DNA from: Candidatus Stahliibacteriota bacterium
Lineage (GTDB): Bacteria; Hydrothermota; Tepidihabitantia; SM23-42
Reading direction: 5' to 3'
DNA length: 40,796 bases
Assembly: GCA_030602565.1 (NCBI GenBank)
Contig: JAUVZL010000021.1
Span: forward strand, 1 to 40,796
The notes under the pieces were generated by a model, which saw only the letters and a list, made by a program, of their open reading frames with translations, was not told where the DNA came from and searched no databases. The translations under genes and the position numbers were made by a program. Numbering within the stretch: position 1 is the stretch's first letter; each line of letters opens with the position of its first letter. Positions 16,748 through 40,507 of this stretch are shown piece by piece.

Positions 16748-17647
16748 CTAAAAAGTAAGTGAAACTATGAAACTGGCAATATTCAAATCCTGATCTGATA
16801 GTTGGCAGAATTGCTTATGAAGTTTACTTTTGGGAGTTGGTAATTTATTCCAAATGTTTTTGCTAATTACGTTAATTTTAAATCCTGCCTTTTCGAAAAA
16901 AGACAGCATTTCGGAGAACCTGATTCTATTAGTGTAGAAACCAGACTTGACAAAAAAGTCAGATTCCCAAATTAAATTCGAGAATCGTAGATGATTCAAT
17001 CCACCACCAAGATGGTCTCTCAAATCAACAACATGAGAACAAATACCGGTTGGTTTCAAAATTCGGTGAAGTTCCTTTAGAGTTGGTAAAAATTCACTTC
17101 TTCTTATATGTTCAAGCACAGCATTTGAAAAAATAAAATCAACAGAATTATCAGGTAGTTCCATCAGGGACTGCAAACCAGATGTTAGGTAAACTGCTCG
17201 ACAAGATCGCATTAAATTATCAAAGTTTGAAAGATCCACTTCAAGATTGTATCCTTTTTCCAACAAGAATGAATACATTGAGTGGTATATAATCATACTA
17301 CGACTAGCACAATCTTCGACATCCACCAAGAAAACCCTTTTTGATCCAAAAGCTCTAGCTATTAAGGCAGAAAAGAGAGAATCTCCGGGTCCAAGTTCCA
17401 AACAAACAAACGAACTCATATTTTTAGTCATTGAAAAATGTTTAGTGAAAATAGAATATGCATACTGGAATGACTGCATAGGACCATAATGGAATAACGG
17501 CAACATTCTCCATATTTTATGTCGCACCGGGAAGTGTGATAAAAATATTTTAATAATAATTTTTGCGTACCAAGGAATGCTTTTTTTTATTAAACCACTT
17601 AATTTTGCCAAAATCTTATCCACAAACAATGTATTCTTTCTCAACAA
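16748..17647 (-). CDS. Class I SAM-dependent methyltransferase
   Basis: 299 residues as the longest frame. Motif I is VCLELGPGDSLFSALIAR, the post-I acidic strand is VFLVDVED, and NSVDFIFSNAVLEHIRR plus LHRILKPTG are the methyltransferase-11 type motifs. A DLRDHLGGGLNHLRFS segment is typical of a family found in polysaccharide loci. The first possible TTG (17647) overlaps a TATAAT box at 17652-17647, so translation probably begins further in, for example at TTG 17629 or GTG 17623; the N-terminus is therefore uncertain. The gene is flanked by 27-bp near-identical sequences. Confidence 0.75.
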   Translation of the reverse strand: MLRKNTLFVDKILAKLSGLIKKSIPWYAKIIIKIFLSHFPVRHKIWRMLPLFHYGPMQSFQYAYSIFTKHFSMTKNMSSFVCLELGPGDSLFSALIARAFGSKRVFLVDVEDCASRSMIIYHSMYSFLLEKGYNLEVDLSNFDNLMRSCRAVYLTSGLQSLMELPDNSVDFIFSNAVLEHIRRSEFLPTLKELHRILKPTGICSHVVDLRDHLGGGLNHLRFSNLIWESDFFVKSGFYTNRIRFSEMLSFFEKAGFKINVISKNIWNKLPTPKSKLHKQFCQLSDQDLNIASFIVSLTF

Positions 17648-17674
17648 TTATATTTGAAATTATTGAAAAATCAA
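17647..17674 (-). promoter_or_regulatory. Probable promoter of the methyltransferase
   Basis: On the minus strand TTGATT (17674-17669), 16-nt spacer, TATAAT (17652-17647). It overlaps the first in-frame TTG of the gene, which argues for a downstream start codon. Confidence 0.55.
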
Positions 17675-17716
17675 TGTAAATATGAGGTGCTCGAAAAACG
17701 ATCATGATTTTTGAAT

Positions 17717-18925
17717 CTACAATTTTATCTTCTTTGCCCATGAGCGGTTTTCTGTAAACCATTTAACTGCAGATTCTATACCCTGCTCTAATTTTATTTT
17801 TGGCTGCCAGGCAAGAATATTTTTTGCCTTGGTTATGTCAGCCCAGGTTGCCTGCATGTCAGCAGGATGGAATGGTTCATGTACAATCTTTGCTTTCTTG
17901 CCCAGCTTCTCCTCAATAAGCTTCAGAAATTCGAGTAATTCATGAGGTTGATCACAGCCAAGGTTTATTATATCAAAACCCAAAGGTTTTAATGCCATTA
18001 TTGTACCGCGGGCAATATCATCAACATATGTGAAATCACGTGACTGTTTACCGTCACCATAGATGATCACGGGTTTTTCTTGATAGACCCAGGAAATAAA
18101 TCGTAAAGGACTCATATCAGGTCTGGATGCTGGTCCGTACACAGTGAAATACCTTAAAATCGTTATATCTATATCGTATAAGTTATGATAGGTATAGCAC
18201 GTTACTTCAGCACTCTTCTTTGATGCAGCATAGGGTGATATGGGTTCATTTACGGGCAAATCTTCTTTAAACGGCATTTTCTGTCCTGCATAGAGCGAGG
18301 AGGTCGATGCAAGAATGAATTTTTTCACACCAAATTCACGACATAGTTCGAGAAGGTTTAAAGTACCTATGACGTTTGTCGTATAATAGACAAACGGGTT
18401 TTCCAAACTGTAGCGAACACCGGCACGGGCAGCGAGATTTATTATTGCGAGAAACGGAGCAGAGGAGCAGGGGTGATGAGTAGAATTTGTTACACCCTCA
18501 CCCCCTGAAACAAGTTCAGGGCAGGCTTTACCCTCTCCCATCAAGGGAGAGGGAATATGAGTTGGTGCACCTCCCTTCAAGGGAGAGGGATTTTTGAGAG
18601 TTGAATATTGCTGAAAGAGCTTCTTAAGAGAATCGTAATTTTCGATGTCGAGTTTGTGAAAAATAAATTTAGATTCATACGGACTTTGGGATTGATTCAT
18701 ACTGATTTTATTTAATTGCTCGAGGCGCCATTGTTTTAGGCGGACATCGTAGTAGTCGTTCATGTTGTCTATGCCGATGACGTTGACAGATTTTACCCCC
18801 TCACCCTTACCCTCTGCTTCAAGAGATGAGGGAATGAGATCAGGTTTTGTGAGGAGGAATTCACATACTTTCCAGCCGATAAAACCAGCCGCGCCGGTGA
18901 CTAATATATTTATTTGATGAGACAT
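17717..18925 (-). CDS. UDP-glucuronate 4-epimerase-like SDR enzyme with palindrome-derived inserts
   Basis: Extended short-chain dehydrogenase/reductase. NAD-binding TGAAGFIG at 10-17, IDNMNDYYDVRLKQWR (typical of UDP-glucuronate 4-epimerases), catalytic YAASK, and YFTVYGPASRPDM. It should interconvert UDP-glucuronate and UDP-galacturonate for the neighbouring locus. The frame extends to an ATG at 18943, but that ATG overlaps the TATAAT box at 18940-18935; the next ATG, 18925, sits 9 nt past the box and begins MSHQINILVTG, so I choose it (402 residues). The family is usually about 320-340 residues. The excess comes from two in-frame inserts, residues about 28-46 and 108-156, made of hairpin repeats (Pro/Ser/Gly/Glu-rich, e.g. 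PSPLMGEGK). Confidence 0.85.
   Translation of the reverse strand: MSHQINILVTGAAGFIGWKVCEFLLTKPDLIPSSLEAEGKGEGVKSVNVIGIDNMNDYYDVRLKQWRLEQLNKISMNQSQSPYESKFIFHKLDIENYDSLKKLFQQYSTLKNPSPLKGGAPTHIPSPLMGEGKACPELVSGGEGVTNSTHHPCSSAPFLAIINLAARAGVRYSLENPFVYYTTNVIGTLNLLELCREFGVKKFILASTSSLYAGQKMPFKEDLPVNEPISPYAASKKSAEVTCYTYHNLYDIDITILRYFTVYGPASRPDMSPLRFISWVYQEKPVIIYGDGKQSRDFTYVDDIARGTIMALKPLGFDIINLGCDQPHELLEFLKLIEEKLGKKAKIVHEPFHPADMQATWADITKAKNILAWQPKIKLEQGIESAVKWFTENRSWAKKIKL
18461..18600. repeat. Three consecutive palindromes inserted in frame in the epimerase
   Basis: In gene sense three hairpins follow one another: CCCTCTCCC-TTGA-AGGGAGG, CCCTCTCCC-TTGAT-GGGAGAGGG, and CCCTGAAC-TTG-TTTCAGGG followed by GGTGAGGG. 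Together they encode roughly residues 110-150, which have no counterpart between the conserved DIEN and INLAARAG blocks of the family. Confidence 0.75.
18788..18844. repeat. Smaller palindromic insert near the epimerase N-terminus
   Basis: In gene sense CCCTCATCTCTTGAAG...CAGAGGG...GGTGAGGGGG forms a nested hairpin and encodes about residues 28-46 (PSSLEAEGKGEG), between the first helix and the second strand of the Rossmann fold, where the family normally has only a few residues. Confidence 0.65.
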
Positions 18926-18934
18926 TATCAGACC

Positions 18935-18962
18935 ATTATACAAATATTCACGGTAGAGTCAA
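18935..18962 (-). promoter_or_regulatory. Promoter of the epimerase gene
   Basis: On the minus strand TTGACT (18962-18957), 16-nt spacer, TATAAT (18940-18935). It fixes the start codon at 18925, leaving a leader of only two or three bases. Confidence 0.8.
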
Positions 18963-19019
18963 CGAAAAATCAAATACTTTATTTCCCCAATACCCTGTGG
19001 AAATTCATTATTTGTTACA

Positions 19020-19115
19020 ACAGACCTCCTTATCTGCGAGAAATCATGATTTCTCGCCTCGACCACTACATTGATTAGGGAATTACCACAGTCCAATAAA
19101 TTGGGCGACTATAAC
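19020..19115. repeat. Palindromic repeats with ACTACA/ACTATA tails
   Basis: A perfect 22-bp palindrome at 19036-19057 (arms GCGAGAAATCA) is followed by CTCGACCACTACA. A second hairpin, CCAATAAATTGG at 19093-19104, is followed by GCGACTATAA. Both are members or fragments of the two-hairpin family with ACTAC ends seen elsewhere in the window. Confidence 0.65.
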
Positions 19116-19181
19116 CCTGATGAAGGTTCTCGACTTCGCCTGCGACAAAAGCAGGCAGGCTCGAACAATAGTTACTAAGGA

Positions 19182-19301
19182 GAACATATAATAGATTAAT
19201 TACCGAAATCACCCCCACTTTTACCCCGTTAGATAGTAAAGATCTAACGGGGTTAATCCTCCCCCGTCGAAGGGGGAGGAAAATTAAAGTATTATATGTT
19301 C
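19182..19301. repeat. 120-bp MITE-like nested palindrome
   Basis: Ends are 20-bp inverted repeats (19182-19201 and 19282-19301) that match at 18 of 20 positions: GAACATATAATA, a 2-base difference, TTAATT. Inside lie a 12-bp-stem hairpin ACCCCGTTAGAT/ATCTAACGGGGT (19223-19253) and a second hairpin CCTCCCCC/GGGGGAGG. There is no coding capacity. The last bases come close to the stop of the M1 peptidase gene (19315), so transcripts of that gene would end in this structure. Confidence 0.7.
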
Positions 19302-19314
19302 GGCGAAAATTTTC

Positions 19315-21165
19315 TTATTTTACAATGACAACTCGTTTTTTCTTATCCCCAACTATAACATGATAGATACCCGCGCTTGATGGTCGGTAGACCAATTCCT
19401 CAGCATAGGTTTTATAGACCATTCTTCCGGTTATATCAAAGACCTTGATCAAACCCGGTTGCGTGAGGGTAAGTTCTATGTGCCGACCGATCGAATTGAT
19501 CTTCTCAATTGCAATATTATTACTGACATATTCTTCAATACCTTGCGTGACCGTGTTTTTCTGAATGATCCAGGTTTCGGGATCAACGACAATGTCCATT
19601 GGCTCTTGTGCTAATACATACTCAAAGTGTTGTGGGGACTGATTTATGTCGAGCGTTAATATTGTATCACCGCTCGGGTAATCTACTCCGATTGGCAAAG
19701 GCATATGAAAGACTGAAGGCCCCATAGGCTGTGTCTGCGTGATATCAAGTACCAAACGCCAGTTTGGCGATTCATAGACTTTAACCCAGACGATATCGTA
19801 AATCGGATAATATAAATCATAAACCCACTCATTAAAAAACCAATCATAATTACCCCCGAGCGCCTGATTGAGGATAAGATTTGCATCATCAGTCGAGGAA
19901 TTCCCATACTCAAATGAATCACGGTAAGTACTCATGAAGCTCAACCAGATGTTATCATCTTCGCATAGATAACGTATCATATGGAGTACCCACGAAGCCT
20001 TGCAATAATCATGCCCCCAGCAGAAAAGATCGGTCAGGGTTGTATCGTATAGAGGTCTTGGATGAGAAGCCTCTGCGGAAAAATACGCATTACGGCGCGA
20101 TATCATGGTATTGATAAATGACTGATGTCCTTCTCTTCGCTCCCTGTAAAGGGCATCTGAATAAGTTCCAAATCCTTCGTTCAACCAGACATTCTGCCAA
20201 CCAAAACACGTTACCATATCGCCCCACCACATGTGAGACATCTCATGTGCCATCAAGTAATAATCATTACCGACAAAGCCTGTACGATATATCGAACTCA
20301 TGGTTTGATGTTCCATGCCCGCATAATAGAATGGATGGAGTATTACCATGCCATACCGTTCAAATGGATAATCACCGTATAGCGAATCATAATAATACAT
20401 CATATCAACTGTATGTTGAAATGCAGTAGGGGCATAAATCGTATCCTCAGGCCAGAAATGATATTTGATCTCAATACTGTCAGACGCTGACGGATAATAC
20501 CAATCTGAATATGTGGTAAAGATACTTGAGGCAAAGTGAATAAGATAAGGAGCAATCGGATAATTATGTTTCCAATTGAATGTTGCATAACCTGCCGTAG
20601 TATCTACATCAAGTAATTCTCCAGTAGCGCAGACATAATAGGAATCCGGTACAGTTATAAAAAACTCGACACCATAATCAGCCTTGTCCCATAATCGGTC
20701 ATAACAGGGTAGCCATCTTCTTGTGCAGAATGGACAACCCAGGGTATATGAAATGGGGTGGGTGCTGGTATACCAGAGATAACCCATACTGCCTGAACCC
20801 GTACCACTATAGCCCACCATTATATCAAAGGAATCACCCTGATTATAGACTTGAGGCAAGTTCACATATAAAGTCTCGTAATTGTGGGAGTAAGATGCAG
20901 TAAGTCCATCGACTTTTAAAGAGTCAACATTCAAGCCTAAAAGGTGGAGGTCAAGAATCGTCAAATTATCCTGATTACTCCGGGCTGAAATCGTAACTGC
21001 GCCTTCAAGATAACGGGAAGTCATGGCCAGGTCAAGATCAATGAAATAGTGTAATACATCATATGTATGTGTTGACTCGGCTCTTACCGGTTCAGGATAG
21101 AATACCTGTTTGTTCTCGATATTAAGAAATGATTGGGTTGCTAAAAACAATATTATTAGTGTCAT
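19315..21165 (-). CDS. Secreted M1-family metallopeptidase with C-terminal sorting domain
   Basis: 616 residues. A signal peptide-like N-terminus (LIILFLATQSF) precedes the aminopeptidase-N beta domain (about 35-225), the catalytic domain with HEMSH at 307-311 and the third zinc ligand E330 in NEGF, giving the M1 HExxH-x18-E spacing. The usual exopeptidase motif G-x-MEN reads GMEHQT at 283-288, a variant that may affect N-terminal recognition. The last 80 residues (about 535-616; IKVFDITGRMVYKT, SSAGIYHVIVG, KKKRVVIVK) form a Por/T9SS-type sorting domain, so the protein is probably exported to the cell surface. An AGGAGG ribosome site and its own promoter lie upstream. Monocistronic. Confidence 0.9.
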   Translation of the reverse strand: MTLIILFLATQSFLNIENKQVFYPEPVRAESTHTYDVLHYFIDLDLAMTSRYLEGAVTISARSNQDNLTILDLHLLGLNVDSLKVDGLTASYSHNYETLYVNLPQVYNQGDSFDIMVGYSGTGSGSMGYLWYTSTHPISYTLGCPFCTRRWLPCYDRLWDKADYGVEFFITVPDSYYVCATGELLDVDTTAGYATFNWKHNYPIAPYLIHFASSIFTTYSDWYYPSASDSIEIKYHFWPEDTIYAPTAFQHTVDMMYYYDSLYGDYPFERYGMVILHPFYYAGMEHQTMSSIYRTGFVGNDYYLMAHEMSHMWWGDMVTCFGWQNVWLNEGFGTYSDALYRERREGHQSFINTMISRRNAYFSAEASHPRPLYDTTLTDLFCWGHDYCKASWVLHMIRYLCEDDNIWLSFMSTYRDSFEYGNSSTDDANLILNQALGGNYDWFFNEWVYDLYYPIYDIVWVKVYESPNWRLVLDITQTQPMGPSVFHMPLPIGVDYPSGDTILTLDINQSPQHFEYVLAQEPMDIVVDPETWIIQKNTVTQGIEEYVSNNIAIEKINSIGRHIELTLTQPGLIKVFDITGRMVYKTYAEELVYRPSSAGIYHVIVGDKKKRVVIVK

Positions 21166-30815: not shown

Positions 30816-31350
30816 ACCGACCCAGAAAGTTCTGGTCATGACTGGATTGATTTACGTTGACGATTTTCGAGTGAGGGACGTGTTAGATGCATTAACTAAA
30901 GACTTCGGGAATATATCCATGAAATCTGAAGTCATCCCGTTTACGCACACAACATACTACAATAAGGAAATGGGCGATAAGCTCTTGCGACAGTGGTGTG
31001 TCTTTGATGATTTGGTAGATCCTGATGTCCTTGCTGATTTGAAACACCGAACTAATAGAATTGAAAGCTCCTTTGTCCATGAAAACAAAAGAAGGAAGGT
31101 TAATATTGACCCCGGACTCATAACCTTGAGCAACATAGTCCTTGCCTCAACCAAGGATTACTCACACCGTATTTACATAGGTAAAGGTATTTACGCAGAA
31201 GTCACGCTCATTTACAAAAATAAGAGGTTCAGATCCTTAGCGTGGACATACCCGGATCACCAGGAAAAAATCGCTCTTGATTTCTTTGAAAAAGCCCGGC
31301 TACTTTTAAAGGAACGGTTAGGAAATCAATTTGGGAATTTAGGTGTTTAG
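30802..31350 (+). CDS. DUF4416 family protein
   Basis: 182 residues. Recognisable features of the family are VLVMTGLIYVDD, FTHTTYYNKEMGD, the RKVNIDPGLITLSNIVLASTKDYSHRIYIGKGIYAEVTL block and FRSLAWTYPDH. Function unknown. The ATG at 30802 overlaps the QueG-like gene's 3' end by 14 bp. Its last codons run straight into the palindromic repeat block at 31357. Confidence 0.82.
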   Translation: MAEIKPTQKVLVMTGLIYVDDFRVRDVLDALTKDFGNISMKSEVIPFTHTTYYNKEMGDKLLRQWCVFDDLVDPDVLADLKHRTNRIESSFVHENKRRKVNIDPGLITLSNIVLASTKDYSHRIYIGKGIYAEVTLIYKNKRFRSLAWTYPDHQEKIALDFFEKARLLLKERLGNQFGNLGV

Positions 31351-31356
31351 GTGTTT

Positions 31357-31388
31357 ACCCCGTTTAGATAGTACACATCTAACGGGGT
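31357..31388. repeat. ACCCCGTT hairpin
   Basis: ACCCCGTTTAGAT and ATCTAACGGGGT pair around a short loop. It is nearly the same hairpin as at 19223-19253, here 7 bp after the DUF4416 stop codon, where it could also act on the 3' end of that operon's transcript. Confidence 0.7.
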
Positions 31389-31412
31389 TTAGGTATTTTA
31401 GGCATTTGCATA

Positions 31413-31460
31413 GTGGGGGCGGGCTGCCCGCGAATATCAAGCCCAGAAGGGCTTTCCCAC
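31413..31460. repeat. GC-rich two-hairpin repeat, GTGGG...CCCAC
   Basis: Outer GTGGG/CCCAC enclose hairpins GCGGGC-T-GCCCGC and AGCCC-AGAA-GGGCT. The layout is that of the GTAGT/ACTAC family but with different sequences. Confidence 0.7.
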
Positions 31461-31482
31461 AAGAAAAAGACTGCAAACTGTC

Positions 31483-31507
31483 TTCCTCCCCCTGGAAGGG
31501 GGAGGAA
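31483..31507. repeat. TTCCTCCCCC hairpin before queD
   Basis: TTCCTCCCCC-TGGAA-GGGGGAGGAA, a perfect 10-bp stem, followed by AAAGGTGGGGGTGA. The same pair of motifs occurs in the 19182-19301 element. It ends about 24 bp before the queD ribosome site. Confidence 0.75.
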
Positions 31508-31540
31508 AAAGGTGGGGGTGATATATGCCAGGAGGAATAT

Positions 31541-31900
31541 ATGTTTGATCTTTCAGTTGAAGGAATGTTTTCAGCCGCACATCAGGTAAAAGGATATCCT
31601 GGTGATTGTGCTGGTATACACGGCCATACTTATCAGGTAAAAGTAATATTGAGGGTGGATAAGCTGGATAATATAGGGATGGCTATTGATTTCAGACGCG
31701 TGAAAACCGCGCTCAATGAAATTCTCTCTGAACTTGACCACAAAAACTTGAATGAGCTTTTATACTTCAAAGAACGTAATGCGACAACAGAATATATCGC
31801 AATGTATGTTTTTAATGAAATGAAGAAAAAAATCAATATGATAAAAGCGGTCACTGTGTGGGAAGGACGTAACAATACCGTCACATATTATGAAGATTAG
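31541..31900 (+). CDS. queD: 6-carboxytetrahydropterin synthase
   Basis: 119 residues. Zinc ligands lie in FSAAHQV and HGHTYQVKV, with the family's MAIDFRRVK, LDHKNLNEL and TTEYIAMYVF motifs. It makes carboxytetrahydropterin, the second step of the route to 7-deazaguanine (queuosine). An in-frame upstream ATG exists, but its first 66 codons only translate palindromic repeats; ATG 31541 with GGAGGAATAT immediately ahead begins the family sequence and gives a normal length. Followed by queC. Confidence 0.92.
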   Translation: MFDLSVEGMFSAAHQVKGYPGDCAGIHGHTYQVKVILRVDKLDNIGMAIDFRRVKTALNEILSELDHKNLNELLYFKERNATTEYIAMYVFNEMKKKINMIKAVTVWEGRNNTVTYYED

Positions 31901-32677: not shown

Positions 32678-32763
32678 TGGAGTGCAACGAGTCCTCTCGT
32701 TATAACTATGGAGTGCAACGGGTCTGCGATGAGCTCAGTCGAATCGTCCTCTCGTTGCGAAAT
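32678..32763. repeat. REP-like palindromes upstream of the RAYT gene
   Basis: Two copies of ATGGAGTGCAACG: the first (32678-32705) reads TGCAACGAG, short loop, CTCTCGTT; the second (32708-32763) is longer, with a GAGCTC-containing loop between GTGCAACG and CTCTCGTTGC. The stem motif CAACGAGA/TCTCGTTG is shared with copies downstream of the gene and inside pdp. Confidence 0.75.
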
Positions 32764-32772
32764 TATGAAACT

Positions 32773-33336
32773 ATGAACAAAAATAACGCTAAATACATAA
32801 TCTACAAACATAATCCACCCCATCTTTTCCTATCAAATGCTACCTATATAATAACCGCATCTATTTATAAAAGAAAAAGATTTTTTCACAATGATGAGCT
32901 AAAAAGTCTTATACTAACTTCTATTCTACACTATTTCTCGAAATACTCATGGCATATTAAGGCATATGTAATTTTAACAAATCATTATCACTTATTGGTA
33001 CATGCCCCAGAAAACAATGTATCCTTATCAAAAATCATATCAAAAATCATAAATAATATACATAGATATACCGCTCACAAAATCAATCAAATAAATAAAA
33101 AATCGGGAATGAAAATATGGTGGAATTATTGGGATACTTGTCTGACTTATGAAAAATCATATTATGCACGATTAAATTACATTCACTTTAATCCAGTAAA
33201 ACATGGGTATGTAGATGATCCAACGAAATGGAAATTTAGTAGTTATAATGAATTCTGTGAATCAAACTATACTGAAGCGAAAAGGGTCGAAAAAGAATTT
33301 CCATTTGAGAGGGTAAAGGTGTATGATGAATTTTAA
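32773..33336 (+). CDS. REP-associated tyrosine transposase (RAYT)
   Basis: 187 residues. Y1/HUH transposase with the metal-binding HYH at 71-73 in LTNHYHLLVHAPE and the C-terminal NYIHFNPVKHGYVDD and WKFSSYNEF blocks typical of TnpA-REP proteins; a Tyr in the YYARLNYIHF helix is the likely nucleophile. RAYTs nick and move REP palindromes as single strands. Upstream in-frame codons only translate repeats, so I choose ATG 32773. REP-like palindromes flank the gene on both sides. It has no ribosome site and is AT-rich compared with queC and pdp. Confidence 0.9.
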   Translation: MNKNNAKYIIYKHNPPHLFLSNATYIITASIYKRKRFFHNDELKSLILTSILHYFSKYSWHIKAYVILTNHYHLLVHAPENNVSLSKIISKIINNIHRYTAHKINQINKKSGMKIWWNYWDTCLTYEKSYYARLNYIHFNPVKHGYVDDPTKWKFSSYNEFCESNYTEAKRVEKEFPFERVKVYDEF

Positions 33337-33353
33337 AAGAAAAAACAAAGAAA

Positions 33354-33418
33354 AGACGCAACGAGAGACTCGTCGCAGTCCAAACCTAAAAAGGACGTAA
33401 TGAGAAATTCGTTGAATC
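33354..33418. repeat. REP-like palindromes downstream of the RAYT gene
   Basis: GACGCAACGAG-AGA-CTCGTCGC (33354-33380) is followed by a degenerate copy GACGTAATGAG...TTCGTTGAATCC (33394-33418). The second contains the ATG of pdp, so the repeat seems to have supplied the start codon region. Confidence 0.65.
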
Positions 33419-37341: not shown

Positions 37342-37939
37342 GAAACGTTGTTCTATATTTATCGACGGTGAATTCAGATTTGGATTACCCGAGAAAATAG
37401 TTCTCCAGTATGGTTTGTATGAAGGTATTGAAATTACCGACCGAGAAATTGATGAAATTGTGCACCATGCAGAAAAAGCCAAAATCATGGAGCGGGCATT
37501 CAAAATACTCCACTATCGTGAAAGGTCAGTTGAGGAACTCAGGGATAGACTGATGCGTATTGGTTTTGACAATTCACTCGTAGATGAAGTAATTGACGAA
37601 TTGATCGCTGATAAAACACTTGACGATGAACGGTTTGCCAGGGCTTTTGTAAATGACTATACAAGCTTAAAGCCAAAGGGGAATCGTTTCATCTTAAGCG
37701 AACTGATTAGAAGGGGTGTTGATAGGGAAATCATTACGAATTTGCTTGACACAAGGGATGAGGGAGAACTGATAAGAAATTACATCGAAAAAAAAGCGCG
37801 CAATTTAGATATGAAAAACCCTAAAGAACGCCAGAAACTTGTCCGTCGCTTACTGGTTCGAGGATTCACCCCAAGCCTTGTATATGAAATTATTAACGAA
37901 CCCTCACCTTTCTCTCCCCCTTCAAAGGGGGAGAGATAA
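37304..37939 (+). CDS. recX: Regulatory protein RecX with palindrome-derived C-terminus
   Basis: 211 residues. Three-helix RecX repeats: [39 protein letters not shown] and a C-terminal [16 protein letters not shown]. It modulates RecA filaments. GTG start at 37304 inside recA. The last residues, [13 protein letters not shown], are encoded by a CTCTCCCCC/GGGGGAGAG hairpin, which also contributes the stop codon region, so the native C-terminus seems to have been replaced or extended by a repeat. Confidence 0.88.
37912..37935. repeat. Palindrome forming the recX 3' end
   Basis: CTCTCCCCC-TTCAAA-GGGGGAGAG, followed by ATAAAGAGAGGGGG, the latter being the purine-rich site ahead of alaS. Related to the hairpins in the epimerase gene and before queD. 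Confidence 0.75.
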
Positions 37940-37957
37940 AGAGAGGGGGATAGATAT

Positions 37958-40507
37958 ATGAAAAGCAATGAACTGCGCACAAGTTTCCTGGAATTCTTTA
38001 AAGATAAAGACCATACCATTGTTCCTTCAATGTCATTGATTCCAAGAGATGACCCGAGTTTATTGTTCACAAGTGCCGGCTGTGTGCAGTTTAAACCTTT
38101 GTGGACAGGCTCTGTGCCCCTGCCGTATAAACGCGCAACAAGTGTGCAAAAATGTTTCAGGACATCGGATTTAGATAATGTGGGAAAGACCAGACGCCAC
38201 CATACGTTCTTTGAAATGCTGGGCAATTTTTCATTTGGCGACTATTTTAAGGAAGACGCTATTTTATGGGCATGGGAATACCTGCTTGAGGTGCTGGGAA
38301 TCGACCCGACCAGATTGTCTGTCTCAGTATATAAGGATGATGATGAGGCATATGATATCTGGCATAAGAAGATTGGTTTGAAAAAAGAAAGAATCTTCAG
38401 GTTCGGTGATGAGGATAACTTCTGGGGACCAGCAGGCAACTCAGGACCTTGTGGTCCCTGCTCAGAAATATTTTTTGACCTTGGCGAGAAATATTCCTGC
38501 GGTAAGAAAACTTGTGTACCGGGCTGCGACTGCGACCGGTATCCGGAAATCTGGAATCTGGTATTCCCCCAGTTTAACCAGACTGTAGCCGGCGAAAGAT
38601 TACCTCTAAAGAACCGCGGGGTGGATACGGGCATGGGTTTTGAAAGACTTGCAGCGGTCCTGCAAAATAAGGACTCGGTTTTTCAGACCGACCTGTTTTA
38701 TCCTATTATTGAGGATATTATTAAACACAAGAATTTGAAATATGGTGAAGATAGAAGAATTGATGTAGCTATCAATGTGATGGCAGACCACGTCAGGGCA
38801 TTAGTCTTTGCAATAGGTGATGGTATTATCCCTTCAAATGAAGAACGTGGGTATGTGCTACGAAGGATTTTACGTAGGGCTGTCCGATTGTGTCGAAATC
38901 TGGCTATAAATGACCCTTTTCTCTACAGGTTTGTACCGAGGGTTATAGATATGTATAAACCTGCATATGCTGATTTAGTTGAAAGGAGAGAAGAAATCAC
39001 TCTTATTATAAAATCAGAGGAAGAAGGGTTTCTCGCCACCCTGGAAAAGGGCTTGCACCAGTTTGATGAAATATGCAAAACCCGCAATTCTATCTCTGGC
39101 GAACAGGCGTTCAAGCTCTATGATACATACGGATTCCCCATTGAATTAATTCAGGAAATAGCCAAGGAAAAAGGTATTAGTGTTGATGAAAAAGGCTTCA
39201 TGGCTATGCTTGAACAAGCCCGCGAGATCTCAAAAGCAGAAGCAAAATTTATTCCCAAGGGTGAGTGGACTATCTTAAACGATGAAAATGGCACATTCAT
39301 TGGTTACGATAAAGTCAGCGTTGAAACCAAAATAATAAAATTTAATGCACATGAAAAGATCATTGAGATAGTATTAAAAGAATCACCTTTTTACGCTGAG
39401 GCTGGAGGTCAGGTAGGCGACCAAGGTGAAATTGTTGGGGAAGGATTTAAACTTGATGTTAAGGATACTTACTGGCACCAGGGCATGATTGTATGCCATT
39501 GCAAACTTGCTCAAGGTAAGTTTACACCTGGTAAAGTTGTTGCTGAGGTAGATTTAAGGAAACGCAAAGAAAGCGCGCGTGCGCATACGGCAACCCATCT
39601 ACTCCATGCTGCGCTCAGGAAAACCCTTGGCGAACATGCCCGCCAGGAAGGTTCGTTCGTTGAACCAGGAAGGTTCCGTTTTGACTTTACGCACTTTAAG
39701 CCGTTGAGCAACGATGAAATCAATGTCATTGAAAATATAGTAAACGAAAAGGTCCTGGACAATATACCCGTTGAAAAATTCAATACAACATTGGATGAGG
39801 CAAAGCGACTCGGTGCAATGGCGATATTCGGCGAGAAATACGGTGATAAAGTCAGAGTGGTTAAGGTCAATGATTTCTCAATTGAACTCTGCGCTGGGAT
39901 CCACCTCGATAATACCGGTCAAATTGGACTCTTTAAGATTATCTCGCAGGAAGCTGCAGCTGCTGGAATAAGAAGGGTAGAGGCTGTAGTTGGTCTTAGA
40001 TTATTTGAAGCACTGAGGAAGAGTGTAAGCACCATAAAAGAACTCTCCCAAATTCTCGGAACAGATAAAGACCTAATTAAAAAGGCTTATGATTTTCAAG
40101 AAAGATTAAAAGAATTAGAAAAACTGCATCGGGAAACAAGTGTTCAATTAGCACGCATTAAAGCGAATGAATTGGTGAGAAAACTTAAGAAGGAAAAATC
40201 AAAAATCATTGCCCAACAGTTTGACAAGTATAGCCCTGATGCAATAAGATTAACTGCTGATTTTATCAGAGAAGATACAAAGAATTGTATCGGCATTCTC
40301 TATCAAGAAATCAATGGTAAATTAAATTATTTAATTTTTGTGGGACAGAATCTGGTTAAAAAACGTCCAGCCAATAAACTCATCAAAGATGTCAGCAAAA
40401 TCCTTGGCGGCGGCGGGGGTGGTCGACCCCACATGGCAGAAGGCGGCGGTGGCGACCCAAAAAAGGTCGCAGAAGCAATTGATTTTCTGAAAAACAAAAT
40501 CGAGTAG
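37958..40507 (+). CDS. alaS: Alanyl-tRNA synthetase
   Basis: 849 residues, normal length. Class II catalytic core (FTSAGCVQFKPLW, VQKCFRTSDLDNVGKTRRHHTFFEMLGNFSFGDYF), editing domain zinc motifs HTATHLL and CAGIHLDNTG, a coiled-coil linker, and a DHHA1-type glycine-rich end (GGGGGGRPHMAEGGGG). It attaches alanine to tRNA-Ala and clears mischarged Ser/Gly. The AGAGAGGGGGA ribosome site comes from the repeat that ends recX. Last gene of recA-recX-alaS. Confidence 0.97.
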   Translation: MKSNELRTSFLEFFKDKDHTIVPSMSLIPRDDPSLLFTSAGCVQFKPLWTGSVPLPYKRATSVQKCFRTSDLDNVGKTRRHHTFFEMLGNFSFGDYFKEDAILWAWEYLLEVLGIDPTRLSVSVYKDDDEAYDIWHKKIGLKKERIFRFGDEDNFWGPAGNSGPCGPCSEIFFDLGEKYSCGKKTCVPGCDCDRYPEIWNLVFPQFNQTVAGERLPLKNRGVDTGMGFERLAAVLQNKDSVFQTDLFYPIIEDIIKHKNLKYGEDRRIDVAINVMADHVRALVFAIGDGIIPSNEERGYVLRRILRRAVRLCRNLAINDPFLYRFVPRVIDMYKPAYADLVERREEITLIIKSEEEGFLATLEKGLHQFDEICKTRNSISGEQAFKLYDTYGFPIELIQEIAKEKGISVDEKGFMAMLEQAREISKAEAKFIPKGEWTILNDENGTFIGYDKVSVETKIIKFNAHEKIIEIVLKESPFYAEAGGQVGDQGEIVGEGFKLDVKDTYWHQGMIVCHCKLAQGKFTPGKVVAEVDLRKRKESARAHTATHLLHAALRKTLGEHARQEGSFVEPGRFRFDFTHFKPLSNDEINVIENIVNEKVLDNIPVEKFNTTLDEAKRLGAMAIFGEKYGDKVRVVKVNDFSIELCAGIHLDNTGQIGLFKIISQEAAAAGIRRVEAVVGLRLFEALRKSVSTIKELSQILGTDKDLIKKAYDFQERLKELEKLHRETSVQLARIKANELVRKLKKEKSKIIAQQFDKYSPDAIRLTADFIREDTKNCIGILYQEINGKLNYLIFVGQNLVKKRPANKLIKDVSKILGGGGGGRPHMAEGGGGDPKKVAEAIDFLKNKIE

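Follow-up and report, generated by a model that had tools for sequence, protein, structure and literature searches.

The window, i.e. the complete stretch of 40,796 nucleotides analysed here, carries on the minus strand a gene for an NAD-dependent epimerase/dehydratase of the extended SDR type. The open reading frame codes for 408 residues from a TTG or 402 residues from the ATG at 18925; the latter is the more likely start. Pfam matched the families Epimerase and GDP_Man_Dehyd. The cofactor motif GAAGFIG (residues 17-23, GxxGxxG) and the YxxxK pair Y238/K242 are intact, and an SDR fold was indicated by Pfam, Foldseek and an AlphaFold prediction that drew on 39 homologues (pTM 0.86). Homologues in the named collection were from many phyla and at most 53% identical (best segment). 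The closest solved structures found by Foldseek were UDP-glucuronic acid 4-epimerases from Bacillus cereus (6zll and related entries). These have the same fold (TM-score about 0.90-0.92, target-normalised) at about 32% identity, yet with 314-321 residues they are devoid of the enlarged loops described below. NCBIfam equivalogs did not match at cut-off; the likeness to UDP-glucuronate 4-epimerases is that of the nearest structures only. An Rfam search over 17500-19400 gave nothing at threshold, a single chance snoRNA match reaching 26 bits versus a gathering score of 100. The features are collected in Table 1.

Table 1. Epimerase gene, its enlarged loops and the repeat copies within them (window coordinates).
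Feature	Position	Strand	Basis or reference
NAD-dependent epimerase/dehydratase (extended SDR)	17717..18943	-	Pfam, structure search, dN/dS
Enlarged alphaA-beta2 loop, residues 34-53, 20 aa	18785..18844	-	2-3 aa in 39 distant homologues
Degenerate GEG copy (insert 1) that retains the right arm and the GGGTAAGGGTGAGGG tail	18798..18832	-	BLAST to C87, C81
Enlarged alphaB-beta3 loop, residues 78-92, 15 aa, no hairpin	18668..18712	-	median 5 in 39 homologues
Enlarged alphaC-beta4 loop, residues 114-165, 52 aa	18449..18604	-	3 aa in 39 distant homologues
Composite GEG element, predicted to code for NPSPLKGGAPTHIPSPLMGEGKACPELVSGGEGV (34 aa)	18491..18592	-	BLAST, comparison with other copies
Hairpin A of composite, CCCTCTCCCTTGAAGGGAG	18571..18589	-	
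Hairpin B of composite, CCCTCTCCCTTGATGGGAGAGGG, 36 nt after A	18531..18553	-	
Nested hairpin C, CCCTGAACTTGTTTCAGGG, within tail	18503..18521	-	
Tail of composite, GGGTGAGGGTG	18493..18503	-	

Loop lengths were compared with those in 39 epimerase homologues from other phyla. The net gain was 17 residues in the alphaA-beta2 loop (insert 1) and 49 residues in the alphaC-beta4 loop (insert 2). This agrees well with the initial annotation, which had counted about 19 and 49 extra, in-frame residues between fold elements. The distant homologues lack the inserts. A third enlarged loop, alphaB-beta3 with 10 additional residues, had escaped it. In the AlphaFold model each enlarged loop links a helix to the following strand of the Rossmann domain. 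In Rossmann folds generally, such helix-to-strand loops sit at that edge of the sheet which faces away from the cofactor site. The prior suggestion of disordered loops is borne out by the model: residues 129-159 in the loop of insert 2 have a pLDDT below 50 and are predicted to be disordered, and the loop of insert 1 is modelled at lowered confidence (block mean pLDDT of 71 at residues 41-50). The insert-coded residues are predicted from the open frame; predicted tryptic peptides of the epimerase loop are NPSPLK and GGAPTHIPSPLMGEGK.

Both inserts contain in-frame copies of a palindromic repeat, here termed GEG element, with the peptide PSPLxGEGKGEGE and the consensus ATT-CCCTCTCCCTTGANGGGAGAGGGTAAGGGTGAGGG-TGAA. 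It is widely dispersed, as a proposed search for the same hairpins elsewhere in the genome revealed. BLAST with positions 18400-18900 retrieved 34 other places (E up to 0.001). The hairpin pattern with up to three mismatches gave 51 strand hits, many palindromes being counted on both strands, and a control with the reversed pattern gave none. Hairpin plus tail were present in 27 of the 61 genomes searched, including the genome under study (26 of 60 relatives); again the reversed-pattern control was zero. At up to two mismatches, 18 of 65 genomes of the class were positive, compared to 1 of 82 from the rest of the phylum. By this count, the GEG element is nearly restricted to the class. Our census comprises the pattern hits and the stretches around them. 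A GTAG/CGTC tag at the foot of the hairpin was not conserved; it occurred nearby, in either sense, in 16 and 11 of 101 copies. One five-unit hairpin array (L139, about 1980-2240) has a copy of ACACAGCGTTGCCAT on either side, which may represent a target duplication.

Genes other than that of the epimerase carry GEG copies, too. Among 95 testable copies, i.e. those away from contig ends, 13 (about 14%) were inside open reading frames of at least 400 residues with at least 60 residues on each side; about 86% were outside of long open reading frames. With looser copies and the window included, we counted 17 in-gene copies in 14 proteins. Fifteen of these are read in the PSPLxGEG frame, on either strand. 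As the hairpin is palindromic, this peptide can be read from both strands. The other two, both in HsdR of G025, use the frame HPHPxPLPSRERE. PSP frames constitute 40% of the open frames over the element (binomial p = 5e-5). The bias persisted when one event per protein was counted and the window was left out (p = 1.3e-4); in these counts some host open reading frames are truncated at the ends of the stretches used, one of them (L174) lacks any Pfam match, and related proteins do not contribute fully independent copies. The host proteins are functionally unrelated and include, besides the epimerase, an Eco57I-type methylase, a MocA-type oxidoreductase, HsdR, a histidine kinase and an FGGY kinase. 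The MocA-type oxidoreductase of this genome has a GEG-bearing insert for which a 72% identical ortholog has a clean empty site. The methylase (L129:435-3728, minus strand) contains a GEG array of three hairpins; its second insert, ACPACPERRRGELVSVGGGA, is related to the peptide of the nested hairpin. Two candidates were rejected as in-gene copies, a PTPS/QueD open reading frame (31343-31900) and an AcpS-type open reading frame at C53. In both the element is upstream of the conserved domain and of the likely start codon. In the former, a related hairpin (31484-31510) is situated just upstream of PTPS/QueD and precedes a likely ribosome-binding site and the ATG at 31541. At 37870-37960 of the window, the 13-residue C-terminal end of RecX is coded by a CTCTCCCCCTTCAAAGGGGGAGAG hairpin; thus, a GEG-like repeat seems to supply the RecX C terminus.

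From these data we conclude that the enlarged epimerase segments are very probably in-frame insertions of a REP-like element, GEG, which is dispersed in the genome and in the class and the copies of which are tolerated in helix-to-strand loops.

What occupies these loops in relatives? Family-level orthologs without the composite of insert 2 mostly have 14-23 residues in the alphaC-beta4 loop (36 in G003, 3 in G011). Orthologs without the hairpin of insert 1 have 13-17 residues in the alphaA-beta2 loop. In the ortholog of the congener G003 the alphaB-beta3 loop contains SSVIARNPEFVEGDEAIS and the alphaC-beta4 loop a different insert. Both stretches match other places in the G003 genome, that is, they are dispersed repeats. 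In the G025 ortholog 35 nt of the open reading frame match one other place in the genome, and close to the C terminus a further helix-to-strand loop is extended to 24 residues versus 8. A similar situation was encountered in HsdR from two genera (L199 in G003, L165 in G025), where unlike repeats sit at three equal loop positions, one of the inserts being a 12-residue tandem repeat, SSIKGEGIRGGV. The idea of a permissive loop in the initial annotation is therefore upheld between species, where the same or neighbouring loops hold different repeats; it does not apply as three landings in the epimerase. The epimerase loop of G003 and G016 shows MTNDSMT / NNSMT peptides, as do the surroundings of the GEG copy of the MocA protein (L010, L011, L133), which suggests a further short repeat family in loops (AATGACTCAATGACT). 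Tentatively, we extend this to the whole class. A few helix-to-strand loops, in the epimerase, HsdR and the MocA oxidoreductase, may be serial docking sites, filled independently by several unrelated palindromic repeat families, and the length and sequence of such loops may evolve mainly by insertion of mobile elements and not by point mutation. We consider this perfectly possible, though somewhat short of probable.

Alternatively, the enlarged loops could be a functional adaptation, e.g. for assembly, partner binding or regulation, which recruited repeat DNA and is kept by selection. The enlargement is maintained across the family, and the strong preference for a single peptide frame might be read in the same sense. 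However, the loop sequences are not conserved among the relatives, the alphaC-beta4 loop of G011 is short, and the element resides in proteins without a common function. Adaptation is thus an improbable explanation.

The initial annotation had interpreted the hairpins of insert 2 as three landings in one loop. Insert 2 does contain three distinguishable hairpins in a row (folding z = -2.94; 0 of 200 shuffles as good). It is made up of 36-37-nt hairpin units, a nested CCTGAACTTGTTTCAGG hairpin and a GGGTGAGGG tail. A similar order, hairpin units, a nested hairpin (GCCTGCCCTGAACTTGTTTCAGG or a variant) and a GTGAGGG tail, was found at C53, C101, C23 and C18; C41 and C38 have the last hairpin, the nested hairpin and the tail in common with it. 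The nested hairpin occurs either as CCCTGAACTTGTTTCAGGG or as CCCCGTACTTGATACGGGG; both are palindromic and differ by compensating changes. Arrays of hairpin units are present elsewhere, too. Their period is 36 nt in the array at C48 and 37 nt in other arrays. A coding-driven period of 36 nt was considered and dropped because an array outside of long open reading frames also has 36 and others have 37. By comparison with these copies, insert 2 is a single composite of about 100 nt coding for a predicted 34 residues, not the product of three landings. The recurrence of this arrangement at C53, C101, C23 and C18 indicated that the composite was assembled prior to its arrival in the epimerase. Three hairpin elements which landed successively in the same epimerase loop are therefore very unlikely, even though the third hairpin sits inside the tail of the second. 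The nesting indicates that the composite itself was once assembled stepwise.

The situation in insert 1 differs. Its BLAST matches, at C87 and C81 (query 395-436), identify a GEG copy by its tail; yet the folding of insert 1 alone was not significant (z = -0.77). Accordingly, of the four hairpins initially annotated the three in insert 2 stand and the fourth is a decayed copy. The 19 residues ascribed to insert 1 were not gained in a single step, as the loop already has 13-17 residues in family-level orthologs lacking the hairpin. Insert 1 is probably best explained as an older, decayed GEG copy in a loop which had grown earlier.

Is the epimerase with these inserts still a working gene? Comparison with the G003 ortholog yielded a dN of 0.163 and a dS of 1.10. 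The resulting dN/dS of about 0.15 indicated purifying selection. A genome search detected no second ortholog, the best other SDR being 35% identical. Taken together, dN/dS, intact motifs and a single ortholog, the gene looks functional. It is hardly credible that the gene is a pseudogene in decay, or an artefact of assembly, in which the inserted repeats are inconsequential: the assembly is of the metagenome type with 104 contigs and repeat insertions in genes often signal decay, but an open frame of 408 codons with intact motifs shows signs of purifying selection, an ortholog in another genome has equally enlarged loops, and a second intact copy is absent.

How could such an arrangement have come about? 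A composite of about 100 nt would have been placed in an alphaC-beta4 loop already of the length seen in most family-level orthologs. One frame of the palindrome gives PSPLxGEG, which is hydrophilic and usually free of stops. Copies in this frame would be tolerated in exposed helix-to-strand loops, where the peptide may be neutral, and insertions that fell into another frame or into structured regions were presumably removed by selection. We infer that the copies arose by transposition rather than by another copying process. Most likely, GEG is a non-autonomous palindromic element that is mobilised in trans, presumably by an enzyme encoded elsewhere than in the element. None of the 13 Y1_Tnp genes in this genome was flanked by the GEG hairpin within 900 bp. 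Within 32684-33400 of the window, GCAACGAG-N4-CTCGTTGC hairpins enclose a RAYT-like Y1_Tnp gene (about 32770-33336). This palindrome is found at 16 places in the genome; gene and palindrome are a candidate for a separate transposase-repeat pair. Yet another hairpin, ACCCCGTTAGAT...ATCTAACGGGGT, is present at both 19220-19256 and about 31357-31392 of the window.

New here are a repeat family without a tag and the finding that different repeats have recurrently filled the same loop or its neighbours. Because relatives differ in the repeats that these loops hold, the lineage offers a natural experiment to learn which protein loops accept foreign sequence. This bears on protein evolution and on the choice of insertion sites in engineered enzymes.

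Two types of known elements invite comparison. Intragenic REPs have been described in several groups as single units, dimers and clusters coding for 43 to 82 residues; the recB genes from two species of Xanthomonas are reported to have different REPs at nearly the same position (PMC3733652). Like the GTAG/CGTC REPs, GEG is a short palindrome, mostly intergenic, with some units, dimers and clusters in genes. Unlike these, it has no conserved tag and possesses a nested second hairpin. In contrast to RAYT-linked REPs (REPtrons), it was found to flank no Y1 transposase gene in this genome (0 of 13, within 900 bp). The Rickettsia palindromic elements (RPE; Ogata et al., 2000; 2002) are in-frame palindromic repeats in genes (summarised in PMC10969869) of about 150 bp (PMC10969869; PMC3733652). 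RPE and GEG are alike as dispersed palindromes which are in frame in unrelated genes, code for a conserved peptide and are compatible with protein function. They differ in sequence family and host lineage; the likeness is by description, and membership in an RPE family is not claimed. GEG is also smaller, with units of 35 nt and composites that reach about 100 nt or more, its tested copies are predominantly outside of long open reading frames, and its one-frame bias on either strand comes from the palindrome. Nevertheless, GEG is of the RPE kind: a dispersed palindrome, in frame in apparently functional, unrelated genes, with a peptide in a preferred frame. A phenomenon familiar chiefly from Rickettsia thus reaches a further class of bacteria, with a clear case outside Rickettsia in which selfish palindromic DNA apparently becomes protein by a measurable rule, one peptide frame in helix-to-strand loops.
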